Of a stretch of DNA of 64,000 nt, positions 6,787-43,200 are shown in pieces (the stretch's first letter is position 1; each line of letters starts with the position of its first letter). The notes below the pieces were generated by a model. It searched no databases. It was not told the origin of the DNA and worked only from the letters and a program-made list of their open reading frames with translations. The stretch is from Thelephora terrestris. Its lineage: Eukaryota > Basidiomycota > Agaricomycetes > Thelephorales > Thelephoraceae. Location of the stretch: assembly GCA_015956445.1 (NCBI GenBank), contig WIUZ02000001.1:1922001-1986000 (forward strand). Direction: 5' to 3'. A program made the position numbers and the translations under genes.

Positions 6787-8374
6787 ATGATTTTGCTGCC
6801 TTTGGCCCCCATCACTGATTCCGCCGTAGACCAGGACCGTCCGCCTGCCGAACCGGCGTTTTTGCCACCTAAAGTCAGAAGAACGCATTTAAACGGCGTG
6901 TCCACTCTCGTGCGGGCCGAGATGTATACTAATCCGGATCGACCTGGCTTTAAATCCCTCACTCGTTCCTCCAGTCCGCCCCAGCCCGTCAATACACAGC
7001 CAACTATTTACAAGTCCCGTTCTACGTTCTCGTCCCCTTCCAGGCGGAAGAGAAGCTCCCCTGGTACATTCTCTTTGCCACCCTCCCCTAAAGTCACCCC
7101 TTTGGCCAACAAGGAAATCCCGTCGACACCTTCCAAAGTGCGCAAGTATTCGCCGTTAACGCCCTCTGCGTCCGTGTCCTCGTTTGGAACTAGTTCATTT
7201 AATTTTCATACGCCACGCACGCCCCCTAAGTCAAAGAGGTATGTTCCCTTTCTCGTAATCCATATCTCACCGATATATATCACGGAACCTAACGTCGCGT
7301 GTCCTCCGCCCCTCTAGGTATATAACCCCCCTACACTCCTCCCCTTCGATCAATTTCCCCCAACGCTCTTCGCCCTCACTAGCTATGTCTATCCAAGTAC
7401 ACCCCGCTATCATCCACTCCCCTTCGACCATGTACCAACCCTCTCCCCTGTATCCCGAACCCTCAAATAACCTGAGAAGGTCTTTATATTCGTTGTCTCG
7501 TCCGTCCTCACCCATGACGAATGTTCGTCCTCCTAGTCGTTCTGAGAAGATTCTCCGAGAGACGCTGCGCCGCGCAGAGGAGCATGACAGGACCAAGGGC
7601 TCCCCATTCTTCCTTCCGACCCCTCTCAAGGAAGACGACGACTCCGATTGCGACTGCGAAGACCTCGACGGTTTCTTTGGCCATCGAGCTTCTGGCTCAC
7701 CACGCTCAAGGTTGACAAGGAATAACAGCATCGATAAGAAGCGCAGTATGTCTCCCACTCCTCACCAGGGCTCCTCCCGTCGAGCATCAACCGCCTCGTC
7801 GAGTAGCGAAGACGTGCTGACACCACATGATGCTGTCTTGAAGAGGAGACTTGAGGGTGTTCTCTCCCAAGCGAGAGATCAGGACCTGGGAAAGCCCCAT
7901 AGGAGTATCAGCCGCCCTCGCGCACACACACGGCAGTCAAGCGTGGATTGGAACGTGCGTTTTCTATTCCTCTTGCTTGTTTGCTTTCGCTTATCCATCG
8001 TCCTTCAGCTACAGTCCCAACCCTCCAGCCCCTTACCCCCTTACTCTCCAGGGCTGCAACCACAGTCCGTAGGACCCCTGACTCCTCCGCCTACGCCCCC
8101 GCAAGTCCCGTCGATGCTTTCCCGCACAACATCAAATACCACAAATACTGGGCGGCGGCTGCCTAAGACACCAACATCACCCTCCTTCGACGCTCGCACC
8201 GCTTCTGCTATGTGTCGCCGAATCGATGGATACGTGAGTTTTGCTAATGTCGAGGGACTGGGGTCGCCTCCTGAGGACGACATCGAGTCCGTGGAAGCTG
8301 GACGACAGCACGCCTGGTTGAAATGGTTAGGTCTGAAACAAGCACCTGGCGTTGAAGGTGTCGCTCATGCGTAG
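6787..8374 (+). CDS. Ser/Pro-rich protein of unknown function
   Basis: I do not recognise this family. The model joins 6787(or 6922)-7238, 7318-7954 and 8009-8374. Intron 7239-7317 (GTATGT..CTCTAG) has phase 2 and restores one frame, which is good evidence that the gene is real. A second intron, 7955-8008, is 54 nt and in frame. The first in-frame ATG is at 6787; 6922 (MYTNPDRPGF) is an equally possible start. The protein is mostly disordered, with many SP/TP sites that could be kinase targets. It has an Asp/Glu patch (DDDSDCDCEDLDGFFG) and more ordered segments: EKILRETLRRAEEHD, DAVLKRRLEGVLSQARD, and a C-terminal MCRRIDGYVSFANVEGLG followed by a Trp-containing helix-like tail. It could be a regulator or scaffold, but no function can be assigned. 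Confidence 0.6.
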
Positions 8375-22299: not shown

Positions 22300-22713
22300 T
22301 ATTTTTAACGATTTAGAATTCTCGTCCATTTTATGGCACATGTAGATAGAAGCGATTCGTACAGGATTAGTATTATAATTAATTGGACAATCGATTTGTG
22401 GGAAGGAGAGGTGTGTGCCGGGATCATGGGCATCAGGCTTTGGTTCAGGGAAAATCAGTCACTTATACTTCAACCGGTCGTTTCAGTCCACTCTCTCCCA
22501 CTTCCCCCATAACCCAGTCGACTGCGCTTGCGCCAGAGATTGGTGTCCACCATTTCCCCCTTCTTCTTGACCTATTCCCAGGCGTTATTCCGGGAGGGAA
22601 CGCAGAACTCGCCGACCGCTGCCTTACCCCTCACACGTTTGACCGGCGGCTTTTGCTGTGCATGACAGCCTTGGCTGACCCTGTGAAAGTATTTGGAGCC
22701 TCGCGCACTTCAT
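22300..22713. promoter_or_regulatory. Intergenic region, presumed RhoGAP promoter
   Basis: 414 bp. It is AT-rich just after the carrier stop (22300-22385), then pyrimidine-rich near 22495-22570. No distinct motif can be assigned. Confidence 0.35.
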
Positions 22714-25700
22714 ATGAATGCTGAATCCCCGGCCTCGTTGTCGTCGTCTGGCACCGGCACGTCCACAACTGGCCAGATGGTGAATCGACATGCTCCCGTC
22801 CCTCTTCCCGGTCGTCCACCTTCTCCGTTCGTAGCTCCCACCTCAAAGTCCCGCAGGTTCCATCTCCCGCTCCAGTCAGTGACTGGAATCACTAACGGCA
22901 AGATGGGTCAAACTCAGAGCACCGGTCCGAACAAACTCAAGCGTGCGTTTGGTCCGCGCTGGAAAAAGTCGGATGAAACAGAGAAGGATGAAAAGGAGAA
23001 AGGGTCAGACAAGAGCAGAGACCGATCTGGGGACGACAATAGCTCCATTCCTGCGCAAAATTTGTCACAGGTGTCTTTATCTACTTCTCTACCGCTCCCC
23101 GCATCGAATCCACCTCCCTCCGCCATCGCCAGGCACCTCGGCAGGCTTGCTCCTCGAAAGCTATCCATGTCTTCCCCCGTGCCACTTCCCCCCATCCAAT
23201 CCCCACCCGCCCCTTCACCTCCGCCTCCTTCTTCATCACCACAGTCGTGTGCAAAGCCCGATTCTACCGTTGATGAAAACGCTCCAGTGATCATCAATAG
23301 TCTCGGTGTCTCTACGTCTATGCAGCCACAGACCCCCACGAGCACGCGATCGGATGATCCATCACCTGTCCAACACGTGGAGCCCCAACGAAGAGCACGA
23401 AACCACAGCGACTCCCCGGCCAAGGACGATTGGAGGAAAAGCGACTCGACGATGGCAAGCCACGTAACGATAAGACCTGGCGCCGGCCTTCCCAGAGCGA
23501 CACGTCCGGCCTCTGTCGCCGAGTCGGCTCATTCTGTAAACACCATCGTCCCTTCAAGTCGGCGCGTGAGCATGATCGTGCCTGATTCCGACTTGGTGGA
23601 AGAGAACGATTCCGGTTCAGAGGAGGAGCAAGGAGTTCCCACCACCAACCCCCCGCTGCAATTCTCCTCCACTCCTTCTTTGAGATTAACCGATGTATCA
23701 AACAGGCAATCAACGTTAATCGGGAGCACGGCATCCTTTTATTCTCGCATCGAGAGCGAACCGGAGCCTCCGGCTTCACACTGCTCACACTCGACTTCCA
23801 TAAGGCAACAACCGGGTCCCTCGAGGGTGTTACCCCCGGTTTGGACCGAGGCAAATGAGCACGGTGTCCTTTCGAGTATCAACGAACAGTCCCGCAGCAT
23901 TGGTTCCGGCATTCGTGGGCGACTTGCAGCTTGGACCTCGCACCGCGAAAACCGTCATTCACCCCCACCTTCCCCCGTTGCCGAGACCAATCGGTCGGTC
24001 AGCCCTAAGCTCCCTGGAGGTTTTAGACAAACCACCCTGAGCATTTCTGGTAACCTTGCCCCCGCAGCCATTGATCTTGGTAAACGGGCCATGGAAAAGA
24101 TCGGTCGTTCATGGGGTTCAAAATCCAATCACCCTCCCGTTCAATCTTCATCCAAGACTGACCTCAATTCCTTTTCAACACCCCCTCCTTCATACAAGGA
24201 CAAGTTCTCCGAATACATCCATCGAAGTCACCCAAACAACTCTGGATCCAGTCATTCGATCTCCTTGTCCAACTCGAGCAAACACAAGAGACGCACGCCT
24301 GACGGTCACTCTGGGACATGGAGTATTTCGTCTTCTCAATCTTCCGTGTCGATTGACGACAAGATGTCCACGCAATCCGGAGCAACCAATCTAAACTTCG
24401 GCCGGATCATGCGAGGACCCTTGAACGTTGGCGGGGGGGCAGTCTTCGGTAGACGGTTGTTTGACTGTGTCAGAGACACCGCTGCGGATGATGTCAAGCA
24501 AAAGCTGCTTTCCGGAGATTACTACGAAGGATGGGAGGTTGATGAGATTCCACCACTCCAGGATAGGCTGTTGCCTGCCCTTGTGCTGAGGTGTGCTCAG
24601 CATTTGCTGACTTGGGGTGTTCGAGAAGAGGGTCTCTTCAGGTACGCCTTTGGTGGACTTGGGTTGCTTGGGCTCAAAATCTTATTCCCATCTTCTCAGG
24701 CTCAGTGGAAGGGCATCGCAAGTTAACCGCCTGCGTGCAGAGTTTGACCAGGGGGTTGATTATGACCTCGCCGAGTGTGATCCCTGTGATGTCGATCCTC
24801 ACGTTATAGCCTCGCTGTTCAAGGCTTATCTCCGTGCATGTGAGTTGGCGCTGGAATCGTTTTCATCTTGTTTAGCTGACAGCTCGGTCGCAGTGCCTGA
24901 ATCGATATTAACGAACGCACTCTACCCTTACTTCGAAGCTGTGATGGTTGCGGAAGAGACTTCTGAGATACAGAAAACCGGCAATTCCACACGTGGAATC
25001 GGTAGTGCAGGGCCTTCCCTGCCGTCTGGCCCGAAGACCGGCATTCAGATGAGGAAGCCTCCCTCGTTGTCTACTCTTGCTATGCCAACCTTCAATGGGG
25101 TTCGCCTACCCTCCCAATCATCTATCTACGCGCTCGCTGGCCTGATCATCCGGCTGCCCAAGGAAAACCGTGATTTGCTTCACACTCTGGTCGAGCTCAT
25201 CAAGGCTACTGCGAACAACAGTCAGCGGACGAAGATGCCCATGGCAAACCTCCTACTCGTCTTTTGTCCCAGCTTGAACATCAAGCCCGGCTTGCTGCGA
25301 GTGCTGTGCGAGTCGGAAGACATATGGAAGGCCCCTCCGAAAACTGTGAAGACGCCCGCCCAGTCAGATCCGGGAGCTCAGGAGAATTTCGGCGCGTCCC
25401 AGCCTTCATCCGCGGAGTCCAGCCCCATCACCGAGGATTCGGAGAGTGTCAGTTCAACCGGTGCTGTACCCAGGAACGTGAGAGCGAGGAGAGGCGCAGT
25501 ACAAACGATTTACGCGCAAGCCTCCGATTCATCCCTGAGCATAAGCTCCCCACCGGATATGGTCTCTGCGGACTCTCGGTCGCTCCGAGACAACACCTCG
25601 GCTTCCGATAAATCATTTTCCGATGTGCTCAACAACGAGGATAAGCTCGCCCGCGAGCCCTCTCCCCCATTGTCTTCCTCCGCAGAATCCCTGGTGACTC

Positions 25701-34220: not shown

Positions 34221-36218
34221 ATGGCTTCCTCAGCGACCCTCGAGTACGCCTCGCGCGCCCCAGACCCTCTGACTTTCCCCAGGCTCCCGAAACATTGCTT
34301 GCTCCCGTCAGGTGAACCCGACTATCTGCGCCTTATCTTAACCTCAAAAGTCTACGACATTGTCACGGAGACACCTTTGGTCTTTGCCAAAAACTTGAGC
34401 ACGAAATTGGGCAACCAGATCTACTTAAAACGCGAAGATCTTCATGAGGTCTTCAGTTTCAAGATCCGGGGCGCATACAACTTCATGGCCAGTCTCTCCG
34501 AGGATGAGCGGTGGAAAGGTGTTATAACGTGTAGTGCTGGTTAGTGCGTATGCTCTATCGTAGCGGTTGTTTGACGCTGTTGACCTCGGATCGTGCTATT
34601 GATAGGAAACCATGCCCAAGGAGTCGCGATGTCTGGTTCAAAGTTGGGAATACCCTGTACGATCGTCATGCCGGAGGGAACACCGTCTATCAAAGTCCGC
34701 AATGTCACGCGACTGGGGGCTAAGGTCGTGTCGTACGGACAAGACTTTGACGAAGCAAAAGTGGAGTGTATTCGACTTGCTGCTCTACACAGCTTGGCAT
34801 TCGTCCCACCATACGACGACCCACTGGTCATCGCCGGCCAGGGGACCATCGGAATGGAGATCTTAAAACAAGTACCCGACTCAGAATCCCTCGACGCAGT
34901 GTTCGCCGCTGTTGGAGGCGGGGGTTTGGTTGCCGGAATCGCAGAGTACATAAAGCGGATCGGCAACCCTTCCACTAGGGTCATTGGCGCGGAAACGGTA
35001 GACGGAGATGCGATGGAAAAGAGCCTGCAGAACGGCGAGCGCGTGACCCTCAGTGAGGTTGGACCCTTTGCTGACGGAACCGCGGTAAAGATCGTAGGAG
35101 AAGAGCCGTTCAGGATTTGTAAAGCACTTCTCGATGGGGTCGTAAAAGCAAACACAGACGAACTGTGTGCCGCAATCAAGGACGTGTTTGAAGGTTGGCT
35201 GGTCGCGATCGCGACCATTATCTATCTGTTCATCAATTCACCCCTCTGACGCCCTGATTTTACCCCTGCCTGATAGAAACCCGGTCCATCACCGAACCCG
35301 CTGGCGCGGTCAGCCTCGCGGGTCTGAAACGTTACATCATTGACAACGGCCTAGTCGGTGCCGGGAAGCGGTTCGTTGCTGTGATCAGCGGCGCGAACAT
35401 GAACTTTGATAGGCTGCGTTTTGTTGCCGAACGTGCTGAACTTGGTGAGGGGCGTGAGGCGCTGCTGAGTGTGGAAATACCCGAAAGACCTGGAAGGTTA
35501 GCTCGATCAGATGTTATCTGTCCATTTCACCCGCGTCAACGAGTTGATACCAACAATTCCTAATCTAGCTTTATTGAGTTACACAACGCGATACACCCGA
35601 GGGCGACGACAGAGTTTATATACCGGTATAATTTACACGACACCGCTCAGGTGTACCTGTCATTCAAGCTTGCAACAAATTCAAGGGAGCAAGAGGTTTC
35701 TGAGCTCCTATCGACCTTGGAGAAGCAGGGGATGAAGGGCTACGACATAAGCGACGACGAATTGGCAAAGAGCCACAGCCGATACATGATCGGCGGTGCA
35801 CAGAGGGTGGCAAACGAGAGATTGTTCAGATTTGGTGCGTGCTGCTGTTTTCAATCCCACTTCCATCGTGGAGGGGGGATCTCTTCCCATCGGGAGATTC
35901 AAACCACTAACCGTGAATGCAGAATTTCCTGAACGACCTGGAGCGCTCAGGAAGTTCCTATTGGGTATGCAAACGAAATGGAACATCTCGTTGTTCCATT
36001 ACCGGAACCATGGCGCCGGTGAGAGAAACTTTCGCAGTATGCAGGATCGCCTTTGTTCCACTCACTCCACACGTCATTAAGATGTTGGGAAGGTTCTCGC
36101 AGGGATTCAGGTTCCACCTGGAGATAATGCCGAATTCGATAGCGTTTTGAAGCAGGTCGGCTACGCTTTCGTCGAAGAAACTGAAAACGCGATCTATAAG
36201 CGTCATCTACGAGGCTGA
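34221..36218 (+). CDS. ILV1: Threonine dehydratase (deaminase), biosynthetic
   Basis: PLP enzyme converting L-threonine to 2-oxobutanoate, first step of isoleucine synthesis, normally in mitochondria. Six exons: 34221-34539, 34606-35193, 35277-35496, 35569-35834, 35923-36018, 36082-36218; 541 residues. The PLP lysine is K81 in [11 protein letters not shown], and the phosphate-binding loop is [11 protein letters not shown]. The catalytic domain ends near [19 protein letters not shown]. Two ACT-like regulatory repeats follow: [10 protein letters not shown] and [12 protein letters not shown], both created or completed at splice junctions, as in feedback-inhibited forms. The end [10 protein letters not shown] is followed by TGA. 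The N-terminus is short and not a clear mitochondrial presequence. An acceptor-like TGCAG just upstream of the ATG leaves room for a missed 5' exon. The stop lies 313 bp from the stop of the convergent terpene cyclase gene. Confidence 0.93.
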
Positions 36219-36530
36219 GATATAAAATACAACAATGGAATCAACATAAAGTGCAATGGAATGTATTCCGTCTCGAGGAAAGCAATTGAACAGCACAGAG
36301 GGATGTCAGGAAAAGTACTATCTCGACCATCGGTGGGGGAGGTGTGTGGTATTTACTAGGCAGAAAAAAGGGAAAGCAGACGTCGACGCCAATATGCAGG
36401 GTAAGAGAGGACAGGAAAAAGGACAATGAAGGGTGATCCACGGGATAACACGTCCATGAGGTAGTGGTACAAACATGCTGTAGAGAGGCCGGTAAAGGTC
36501 GGCGAAGGTCCCTCAGAAGCAAAAGAAAAA
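36219..36530. other. Intergenic region between convergent genes
   Basis: 312 bp between the stop codons of ILV1 and the HAD-terpene cyclase gene; no gene seen. Confidence 0.5.
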
Positions 36531-38310
36531 TCAATGGTGGATAACTCTCGTTACCAAATTGACCCAAGGCCATTGGAAACTCTTCCGTATCCCTTGGGCC
36601 CACTCGCCAGCGGAGGAACTCCTCCTTCTGTGTTGTTTGTGACCTTCGGCACGAGAGGGAGGGCGATCCGCCACGACAGGAGAATCTGGGGATACGATAG
36701 AAATCCGGTAGCTTTTGAGGATGGGGAGCTGCGGCTGATACATGGGGGTCTGGGGTAGGTGATTGAGGGCCTCGATGGCATTGATTGCAAGGGCTGTGGT
36801 CAGACCGCGGTTGCCGATGTTGATCCCGGAAGAACCATATTTATACATCCAACCAGCTCCCCAACCACCGTCTTCTTGTTGGAGGGTGAGAAGGGTTCGA
36901 AGGTCCATTTCGTCCCGGATTCCAACAGATGCGCAAGCAAGGACACGCATAGCGAGGGCAAGAGCATCGCCTTCCGATCCTATCCTTTCTTGAATGCGCT
37001 CGCGGAAGATAGGGCGAAGGGAAAGATCTGCTTTTGTGCCCTTGATTTGTTCGAGGAGACGAGCCATGAAGAACAAGAAGCATTCCGGAGTAGCGTAATA
37101 ACGGGTACCATCGGTGTATCCCCTGTTGATGAGGACTTCTCGGACCCAAGCAAAAGTTCGGGGGAGTTCGTCGCCGCGCCCGTTGGCGTAGAAGAGGGTG
37201 AGAACGTTGACACAGACAACTGGGTCGAAGCGCAGTCTCCTCTGATCAAAGTACGTCTAGCGGAGTGACGTGATGGTTGATTAGCGTCAGGGGCAAAAAA
37301 ACAAATTAAGGTGATTAGGTGACTAACTTGAACGATGCCGTCCTTGTCGACATATTTGAGCATCTCGTCCATCACGGAGGAAATAACTTCCTTCGAACGA
37401 CCGGTGACGGTCAGAGCGACGGAGGTGGTATCGAGATCGCATGGAAAGGCCTCAGTGGTGAGAATGGGCTTTCCCTGGAAGAAATTCCATTCTCGCTCGT
37501 GCTCGACAAGGGAAACGAGGTTTCTGATGTGAAACAGGGCCCATCAGTTCCATTAAAAAGGTACGAATGGAGGTGAAATGCTTACGGATCGCACGTGGCT
37601 TCCAGTATGAGCAACTGGGCGAAGTTCTCCTTGAGGGTGTAACCGTTGGAGGTGACAGAGTGGAGAAGCTTTGCGTTGCTCTGTAGGTAGGACCTGGCAC
37701 GTTGGACTGGATCCTGTACGGCATTACGGATGGCCTGGAAGACTCGCTTCTGGTCGTCGAAGACGATACCACGCATGCCGAATGAGCGAGCCGAGAGCAC
37801 ATTCTCAGGTTTGTCATCGACAAACACGACCGAACGAGGGTCAGCAGCGATGTCGTCGAGGACATATCTGTAGAACCCAAGGTTGGGTTTTCGCTCGCCG
37901 GCGTCGGCAGAGGTGTAGACTTTGTCGAACAGGGACCAGTCTGCTGGCTTAGTCCTGAGGTACTCGTAGTCGGGACGGGATATGTTCGACATGGCATATA
38001 CGCGAAGTTGGCCATCAGACTGTTGCTTCAACTCGCGAACGAAACTGAGCATCTCGTCATTTGATTCGAGAGAGTCGCGCGCTTGGTTAAACGCTTCTGC
38101 GATCTCGGCGGTGGGGATGTGGAATTCGTTGGATATACGTCCGTAACAGTCCTGCTGGGTGATAAGACCGCACTCGTAGTCGGCCCAGATGGGAGAGGAG
38201 AGAATAGCCTTGAGAGATTTGGGTGGGATGGAGGTCTCGGTGTGGGGAGACCACGAGAAGAGAACATCACCGAGGTCGAGGATGAGAGTCGTGGCTTTCG
38301 TGAAGGACAT
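36531..38310 (-). CDS. HAD-terpene cyclase fusion (drimanyl diphosphate synthase-like)
   Basis: Three exons, minus strand: 38310-37586, 37523-37328, 37256-36531; 548 residues. Residues 1-230 form a HAD-like domain: nucleophile region [10 protein letters not shown] (D12; the usual second Asp is G14), AMSN (S108), ERKPN (K141) and FVDDKPEN (D165/D166). Residues 245-545 resemble the class II terpene cyclase beta-type fold: DLDTT at 271-275 is a DxDTT protonation motif, and [10 protein letters not shown] at 433-442 is a QW-type repeat. This HAD-cyclase order is known from the fungal astellolide enzyme AstC and its basidiomycete relatives, which cyclise farnesyl diphosphate to drimanyl diphosphate by protonation. 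Whether the HAD part also removes the diphosphate cannot be told. No P450, prenyltransferase or transporter gene lies nearby. Substrate and product are inference. Confidence 0.82.
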
Positions 38311-40241: not shown

Positions 40242-43200
40242 ATGTCTCATCAATCGTCTCCGCTGAGCGAAGAAGATGGTCTCAATCGCAACGCTACTAA
40301 TGGATTCATCAAGACTAACGGGAATGGGGCTTATTATGAGAACGAAGATACCCCCATGAGCGAAGACGACGATGTGCCACTGGTATGTGGCCCAATTTCC
40401 TTCCGATTTCTCGCGTGTGGTGGATCTGGGCCAACTCGTGTTTAGTCTCAGACCCTTGCTACCCCACCTCGGAAGCGTAAGAAGGTTGTCCAGGGTGACT
40501 CTTCGAGTGATGACGATGTTCCTTTGATTTCCTCCTCCCAACAAAGACCCTCTGCTGCGTCTATGGACGGGCCATCGCATTCTACCGCAGCTTCCAATGG
40601 CAAATCGAGAGCTAGGGCTGCGAAGGCAACCGCTAAACGCGCTGACTCGGATGACGATGATCAACCGCTCGTGCCCAATAAACGTGCTTCCAGGAAACCT
40701 CCAAAGAAGAAGACTAAGGTCCAGGATTCCATACCCGATGCTTCGGAGATGGACGAAGGTGACAAACCTCCCGCGTCGGCCGGGAATCCTTCTACCCGAG
40801 GAAAGCGAAAGGTAAAGGTGGAATCCGAGGACGATGATGACGCGCCTTTGGTCAAAAAGCCTTCCAAGGCGCGCCGCAAGACTGTAAAGAAGGAAGAAGG
40901 TTCGGACACCGAGGTATCCAAACCCAAGAAGAAGGGCGCCAAACCAAAGAAAGAGGATAATGGGGAGGAGACCCCTAAGAAGGGCAAGAAAGCGAAGAAG
41001 GAAGACGAGGAAGAGGAAGAGACCCACCGCTGGTGGGAGAACGAGAATCCTGCTGGAGATGGTACGCAGAAGTGGCAGACGTTGCAGCATAATGGCGTGT
41101 ACTTCCCCCCACCCTACGAACCTCTTCCGTCGCACGTTAAGATGAAATACGACGGTATAAGCTTTCTGTTGTCTTCCCTCATTCGCCAGCTGTTAAGTAC
41201 TGCACACAGGCAAGCCTGTCAACCTGCCTGAGGAAGCCGAGGAGGTGGCTGGATTTTATGGCGCATTGCTAGAGACTCCACACGCCGAGGATGCAGTTTT
41301 TAACAAAAACTTCTTCAAGGATTGGCTCGAGGTTCTGAAACGCTACCCTCCGGTCTGTCTCTCCGTCTCTCCGCTTTCTGCATCACCGACTTACCACTAC
41401 GCAGCTGGATGGCACCAAGATCAAGGAGTTTGCCCTTTGCGACTTCCGACCCATGTTCGAGTACATGGAGGGGGAAAAAGCAAGGAAGAAGGGCTTAAGC
41501 ACCGCGGAGAAGAAGGAGCTCAAGAAGGCAAAGGACGAGCTCGAGGCTCCTTATACGCACTGCAACCTTGACGGTCGTAAGGAAAAGGTTGGAAACTTCC
41601 GCATTGAACCTCCAGGTCTCTTCAGAGGCCGAGGCGAACACCCCAAGAAAGGATCTCTCAAGGTATCTCCGTGTCTGAATCATATAAGCCCCTCATTTGA
41701 CCTCTCTGCGCCCAGAAACGCGTCCGCCCGGAGGATGTCACGATCAACATTGGCCAACACGAGCTTATACCGGAACCCAACGCGCCTGGAACTTGGAAGC
41801 AAGTGATCCACGACAATACGGTCACCTGGCTTGCCAATTGGGTCGAGAACGTCAACCAGAACCACAAGTATGTTTTCCTCGCCGCCGGCAGCTCACTCAA
41901 GGGGCAGAGCGATATGTCCAAGTTCGAAAAGGCGCGGGAATTGACGGTACAGCAAAGCCTGTTCGGTGTTTGATCGGTTTCTCAACTTTGCATATCGCAG
42001 AACCATGTGGATCGAATCCGGGCGGATTACCGGGAAGACCTGAAGTCGAAGCAAATGGCAGATAGGCAGCGAGCGACGGCCATGTACCTCATCGACGTTC
42101 TCGCACTCAGAGCTGGTAACGAGAAGGGCGAAGATGAGGCCGATACCGTGGGATGTTGCTCACTCCGTTGCGAACACGTCACGCTGCAACCGCCCAACAT
42201 ACTGTCCTTTGATTTTCTGGGTAAGGATTCGATCAGGTACTACAAACAGGTCGAAGTCGATCCCCAAGTGTTCAAGAACATGAGGATCTTCAAGCAGAAC
42301 AAGACGGATGAAGATGCCCTGCTCGATCGTGTTCATGTGAATATCCGTTTCGTCTCGTTGTTAGGACCTAATTTGTGACCCACATCCGACAGACCACGAA
42401 GCTGAACGCTCACCTGAACGGATACATGAAGGGACTCACTGCGAAGGTTTTCCGTACCTTCAACGCTTCGCGGACTTTTCAGGTTCAACTCGATGAGAAG
42501 TCTCCTCATAACGGGACCGTGCAGGAGAAACTGAACGCATACAACGAAGCCAACCGAATGGTCGCCATCCTCTGTAACCATCAACGTAGCGTACCGAAGA
42601 CCCACGAGCAGTCTATGGCACGGATGAGTGACAAGGTGTGTCGATGGAGATCATCGTTCGGTTGTTTGAGTTTGACTGTTGCTTTGTAAATTACAGGTGC
42701 GCCAACTGAAGTATGAGCGCATGAAGCTCCGGCACGTCTTATTCGGGATTGACAAGAAGTACAAGAAGCAGAAGAAGTACGCGGAAGACGAATCAGATAT
42801 CGACGAAGCGGCAGTGGTTGAGATCGAGGAGAGGATGAAGGAGAAAGAGAAGGAGAAGGCTGAGAAGAAGTTTGCGAAAGAGAATGAGAAGCTCGTTGCG
42901 GATGACGAGAAGCCCCAGGACGATTCGGTGCTCCAGGAAAGGCTGGAGGAGATTGACGGTGAGTTTGAGAGGCTAGTGGAGGAGCGTGGGACGGGGAAGG
43001 CATCTCTGAAGCGAGAGAAGCCTGCTGAGAAGATCGAGGAAGCGATTGAGAAACTTGACGAGAGGATTGCCACTGCTAAGCTTCAGATGGTAGATCGTGA
43101 GGCCGGGAAGGAGATCGCATTGGGAACGAGGTCGGCCCATCCCGTCTGCTCCGCACGCGCCCTGTTTTGCTGATTTGGATTCCTGAACAGTAAAATCAAT

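Follow-up and report, generated by a model that had tools for sequence, protein, structure and literature searches.

A three-exon gene for a HAD-like domain fused to a terpene cyclase

The window (the whole stretch of 64,000 nucleotides from Thelephora terrestris that was analyzed) carries a minus-strand gene of three exons, whose predicted protein of 548 residues joins an N-terminal HAD-like domain to a C-terminal class II terpene cyclase beta domain (Table 1). Both introns have GT-AG ends and splice in frame. The model reproduces the protein length given in an earlier note on this DNA, which had named no strand, and places all the residues singled out there (D12, S108, K141, D165, D166 and the DLDTT stretch at 271-275) at the same positions. 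Longer models of 555 and 552 amino acids (intron 2 donor GTCACT, acceptor ACCCAG) were set aside, since the 548-residue model has the better donors and its alignment with AstC and drimenol synthase runs on uninterrupted through the second junction. One copy was found in its own genome: in a protein search of 40.6 Mb in 60 contigs the three matches at E<=0.001 are its three exons.

Table 1. Features of the HAD-TC gene (positions in the window)
Feature	Position	Strand	Basis
Whole gene, 3 exons	38310-36531	minus	splice enumeration; 548-residue protein
Exon 1, residues 1-241 and part of 242: entire HAD-like domain and start of the cyclase half	37586..38310	minus	splice enumeration and phmmer alignment to AstC
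HAD motif I, D12-L-G14-D15	38266..38277	minus	alignment and motif check
HAD motif IV / DDxxE, D165-D166-K-P-E169	37804..37818	minus	alignment and motif check
Intron 1, 62 bases, GTAAGC...CATCAG	37524..37585	minus	splice enumeration
Exon 2, with the DxDTT motif	37328..37523	minus	splice enumeration
DLDTT motif of class II cyclases, residues 271-275; D273 as predicted general acid and D271 as predicted base	37424..37438	minus	motif check; function by homology to AstC (PMC13244436)
Intron 2, 71 bases, GTTAGT...CGCTAG	37257..37327	minus	splice enumeration
Exon 3 including stop: remaining cyclase domain and unconserved tail	36531..37256	minus	splice enumeration
QW motif QQEDGGW, residues 433-439	36861..36881	minus	motif check
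C-terminal tail, residues 471-548 and stop	36531..36767	minus	without counterpart in relatives; codon use not coding-like

A codon-use table trained on six neighboring ORFs gave log-odds of +0.305 bits per codon for residues 1-199, +0.274 for residues 200-470 and -0.032 for residues 471-548. To the latter segment nothing aligns in the AstC chain, AstC itself being reported as 480 residues long (PMC5024094), or in the six full-length bacterial relatives described below. Since this tail of 78 residues has neither homology to the aligned relatives nor coding-like codon use, the gene model is uncertain at its 3' end; the tail might be an unconserved extension, or the true end might lie earlier or be reached by another splice. 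Among the 25 best-ranked donor/acceptor pairs for an extra intron in the tail, the best donors agree with the consensus at 4 of 6 places, where both accepted introns reach 5 of 6, and the model was kept unchanged. The same tail is what could be adduced in favor of a decayed or mis-assembled gene, or of a fortuitous ORF. Against this, the introns keep the frame, the codon use of residues 1-470 scores as coding and the catalytic residues are intact, which makes such an explanation very improbable.

Relationship to the HAD-like terpene cyclases

A phmmer search against the solved structures recovered AstC (22tz; further PDB entries 22TY and 22UA), the drim-8-ene-11-yl diphosphate synthase of Aspergillus oryzae, with an E-value of 4.2e-130 over residues 9-469; hence, the gene is not a chance reading. 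The cyclase domain of AstC alone is matched at E 2.8e-85 over residues 199-470, and from this similarity to a crystallized domain we infer an alpha6-alpha6 barrel fold for the cyclase half. Next come 9mhs (E 1.9e-59), a bacterial chain named drimenol synthase, and 9m7d (about 9e-59), another that is named only HAD superfamily protein, and thereafter ordinary HAD phosphatases such as YihX. In the Pfam scan only the HAD half passed the cut-off (HAD_2, Hydrolase). The protein is identical to AstC at 207 of 459 aligned residues (45%). The cyclase half accounts for 138 of these identities, over 270 aligned residues, and the HAD half for 69 over 189.

Homology thus extends across both domains in one chain, in the same order as in AstC, and the DxDTT motif is accompanied by the acid-orienting Asn and Tyr of such cyclases (D271, D273, T274, T275, N324 and Y361). 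The protein has exactly one QW motif, QQEDGGW, which agrees with the pattern Qxx(D/G)G(G/S)W of PMC5024094, and exactly one DDxxE motif, DDKPE. The residue set of the bifunctional subtype to which AsDMS, AacA and AncC belong (D-x-G, S/T-N, K, DD) is likewise complete, as D12, G14, S108, N109, K141, D165 and D166. Accordingly, the protein very likely belongs to the HAD-like terpene cyclases (HAD-TCs). The fusion of a HAD phosphatase-like with a class II cyclase domain proposed in the earlier note is borne out; homology to AstC and to a drimenol synthase, with the catalytic residues kept, also supports its placement in the AstC/AncC-type class as a candidate drimane-type synthase.

To extend the comparison, genome contigs in GTDB were scanned with a three-sequence alignment, in which 51 stretches fitted a peptide pattern and seven loci were confirmed. 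Six of these are full-length (L005-L010): five come from Aquimarina, including two uncultured isolates and A. spongiae, the source of AsDMS (L010), and one from Flavivirga; they are 31-32% identical to the 548-residue protein. In the seventh (L011, from a Sphingopyxis MAG) the match is confined to residues 128-179 of the HAD half, and this locus was excluded from the residue table. A corresponding search of IMG/VR yielded seven stretches that fitted the peptide pattern, and none of the seven was confirmed. The GTDB scan, which used two peptide patterns, is incomplete, since PMC9128629, where bacterial HAD-TC enzymes are described, lists one more relative from Rhodobacteraceae KLH11.

AstC orthologs with DxDTT and QW motifs were noted in basidiomycetes as early as 2016 (PMC5024094), groups of AncA paralogs were reported from diverse basidiomycete lineages in 2025 (PMC12001456), and structure and mechanism are given in PMC13244436. 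A 2023 survey of 172 characterized mushroom sesquiterpene synthases lists three with HAD_2, namely AncA, AncC and DS3 (PMC10608071), and PMC10210940 contains none of the words haloacid, AstC and class II. The view that such enzymes are few, put forward in the earlier note, therefore has to be given up for genomes, where basidiomycete orthologs and paralogs are on record (PMC5024094, PMC12001456), and retained for members with a tested product. The gene described here is a well-preserved member of this known family, apparently uncharacterized in the open-licence PubMed Central literature; as such it adds to the family and raises no question that is new in kind.

The HAD half is predicted to be an active phosphatase

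In AsDMS, the individual changes D43A, G45A, N139A, K171A, D195A and D196A are each reported to abolish all activity on drimenyl monophosphate (PMC12365925). All six residues have identical counterparts in the protein (D12, G14, N109, K141, D165 and D166) and in each of the six full-length bacterial relatives. AstC, which is described as being devoid of phosphatase activity (PMC13244436), carries E, K and N (E13, K15 and N166 of AstC) where the protein has D12, G14 and D166, and has thus lost three of the six. As to the last of these, PMC13244436 prints Asp166/Asp167 for AstC, whereas the deposited chain (offset 13) has Asn at 166, and according to PMC5024094 the second Asp of the AstC DDxxE motif is Asn. 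The second Asp of HAD motif I is replaced by Gly14 in the protein, and this had been taken earlier as a reason to doubt the phosphatase; that doubt is removed by AsDMS, an active phosphatase with motif I of the form D43-L-G45-D, in which the backbone carbonyl of G45 is a metal ligand (PMC12365925).

With all six essential residues present and three of them lost in AstC, an active phosphatase half is the best prediction. The contrary case, in which a phosphatase-dead HAD half merely caps the pocket, as in AstC, and separate phosphatases finish the reaction, has on its side that AstC is the closest solved relative and that the HAD half is less conserved with respect to it than the cyclase half. 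Given the intact set of essential residues, we regard it as quite unlikely. An active HAD half, as predicted here, is also a feature of AacA, the albicanoyl monophosphate synthase of Aspergillus aculeatus. How far such a half carries the reaction differs between the known enzymes: in vitro AacA stops at the monophosphate (PMC13244436), and AsDMS continues to the alcohol (PMC12365925).

The cyclase half and the predicted dimer interface

In AstC, activity is reported to be lost in D271A/N, D273N, T274A, N324A and Y361F (PMC13244436), and each of these residues has an identical counterpart in the protein; in the solved structure, AstC bears D273N as an engineered change. Position 314 is R in the protein as opposed to K in AstC, where K314R costs less than 25% of the product (PMC13244436). 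The pyrophosphate-gate residues S35, Q265 and K451 of AstC are replaced by A35, T265 and S450, from which it appears that the phosphate gate and the handling of the head group are not those of AstC. The bacterial drimenol synthases (AsDMS and the Aquimarina and Flavivirga proteins; PDB 9MHS/9MLO and the related 9M7D-F) have the same architecture, the D-L-G-D form of motif I and, beyond the phosphatase residues and DxDTT, also Y309, R359, Y360 and Y361.

The contacts R356-E166 and R313-S36 of AacA come from an AlphaFold2 model of its dimer (PMC13244436). By the numbering of that paper they map to R359, E169, R316 and S38 in the protein, i.e. the residues of the modeled interface are alike, as is G448. 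This suggests the same cross-chain arrangement as in the modeled AacA dimer.

Proposed reaction

Taken as a whole, the evidence is best explained by a bifunctional HAD-TC that would convert farnesyl diphosphate to a drimane diphosphate and then remove phosphate, a reading to which we assign a probability of roughly 0.8. The C15 substrate farnesyl diphosphate would probably be folded to a small ring skeleton prior to the removal of phosphate. In the proposed scheme, D273 of the C-terminal alpha-barrel would protonate the terminal double bond of farnesyl diphosphate, setting off a class II cyclization to the bicyclic drimane diphosphate, which would be terminated through deprotonation by D271 (with T274) or by a water held by D271. 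The HAD half with Mg2+ would then remove phosphate, with D12 as nucleophile and K141 as its catalytic partner, S108 and N109 shaping the phosphate pocket, and the carbonyl of G14 together with D165/D166 holding the metal. A head-to-tail dimer is probable, in which the HAD domain of one chain would cap the cyclase pocket of the other.

The second ring is itself uncertain, since the basidiomycete enzymes AncA and DS3 are reported to make monocyclic products. AncC and AncA of Antrodia cinnamomea and DS3 of Termitomyces are HAD-TCs with HAD_2 like the present protein, and the DDxxE motif reads DDKIE in AncC and DDRIE in AncA, in place of DDKPE here (PMC10608071). Their products differ from one another. 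An enzyme of the AncA/DS3 kind would close one ring only and give a monocyclofarnesol-type product instead of a drimane. Among the three HAD-type members in PMC10608071, two behave in this way, AncA forming (R)-trans-gamma-monocyclofarnesol and DS3 nectrianolin-type cyclofarnesyl products; the mappable pocket residues, in a comparison that comprises other enzymes than AncA and DS3, point weakly the other way in resembling those of drimane-forming enzymes. On balance we consider a one-ring product rather unlikely and retain the bifunctional drimane-forming HAD-TC as the preferred reading.

Pocket residues and the likely product

For the finer prediction of the product, residues of AncA, AncC, AacA, DrtB and DS3 were mapped through the numbering printed in the respective papers. 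The double change Y253F/F444Y, which the authors selected from the differences between AacA and the drimenol producer DrtB, is reported to shift AacA from albicanol toward drimenol, with an albicanol:drimenol ratio of 2.8:1; adding S260L/P261T lowers the ratio to 1.9:1, albicanol still being the larger share (PMC13244436). The protein natively has the equivalents of all four changes, with F256 and Y447 in place of Y253 and F444 of AacA, and L263 and T264 matching S260L and P261T. F256 is also common to the protein and all six bacterial relatives, as are Y309 and Y360. These residues of the pocket point weakly toward a product of the drimenol type.

A second set of positions reads differently. 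Changes at 319, 509, 511 and 518 make albicanol the main product of AsDMS (PMC12365925). At these four places the protein has F257, Y445, Y447 and I454, in agreement with AstC throughout, and AncC is given as F, Y, F and A (PMC12365925). The bacterial drimenol synthases differ from the protein at all four; for instance, Ala stands at 447 in all six relatives, where the protein has Tyr, and Phe at 454, where it has Ile. As residues 257, 445, 447 and 454 equal those of AstC, which makes a drim-8-ene product, no firm call of drimenol can be made. We tentatively favor a drimenol-type alcohol or its monophosphate as the likeliest single product, with albicanol, drim-8-en-11-ol or monocyclofarnesol types as the next candidates. 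The combination of a complete phosphatase site with a pocket that mixes drimenol-, albicanol- and drim-8-ene-forming features makes the protein a useful test of the residue rules proposed in 2025-2026.

Genomic surroundings

Out of 67 ORFs of at least 150 residues in the window, 40 were scanned with Pfam, and 18 of them gave a match at E<=0.01, three of which (DUF3527, Glyco_hydro_17 and Sec2p) lie below the Pfam cut-off. The neighbors recognized in this way are an FGAM synthase, a MIOS-like protein, a RhoGAP protein, VPS8 (three ORFs), a PLP enzyme, topoisomerase I (two ORFs), a cytidylyltransferase-family enzyme, PEP carboxykinase, HSP70 and RRM proteins. No terpenoid tailoring family was seen among the 40 scanned ORFs, a scan from which genes of short exons could escape. 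A search of the genome for P450s gave at least 97 matches (92 of 149 candidates scored) and none in the window, the nearest of these matches (C1:1913128-1913637) lying about 45 kb from the gene. The gene stands among housekeeping genes and, as far as the scanned ORFs and scored P450 candidates show, has beside it no tailoring genes of the kind found with the cyclase in the ast and anc pathways: the AstC gene is clustered with those of P450s and two phosphatases (PMC5024094), and AncA and AncC belong to the antrocin cluster (PMC12001456). One could conceive that an unclustered HAD-TC, found once in its genome, carries the synthesis of a drimenol-type alcohol through to complete dephosphorylation by itself, the alcohol to be released as such (e.g. 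as a volatile) independently of a clustered tailoring pathway, but we hold this to be unlikely.

The two genes flanking the cyclase gene are both on the plus strand. The gene for the PLP-dependent enzyme (34584-36219) converges on it; its Pfam PALP match is at 34584-35249, and the segments that follow were read by eye as threonine deaminase regulatory segments. The N-terminal exons of topoisomerase I (40446-41806) are divergent from it, with about 2 kb between the ORFs. Elsewhere in the window, the long plus-strand frames 7259-8374 (371 amino acids) and 22687-24726 (679 amino acids) had no Pfam match at E 0.01; the second overlaps a frame with the RhoGAP domain, and the two may belong to one gene. 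In the genome at large, three weak matches to DUF6534 were recorded, and neither DUF6534 nor the KDZ transposases matched in the prokaryotic control genomes; both families would suit a mushroom-forming basidiomycete. PF11895, the class II peroxidase extension, matched neither in this genome nor in any control genome. The KDZ transposase matches listed for the T. terrestris genome number 125 and are spread over many contigs; many of them contain internal stops, and several pairs on different contigs have identical scores.
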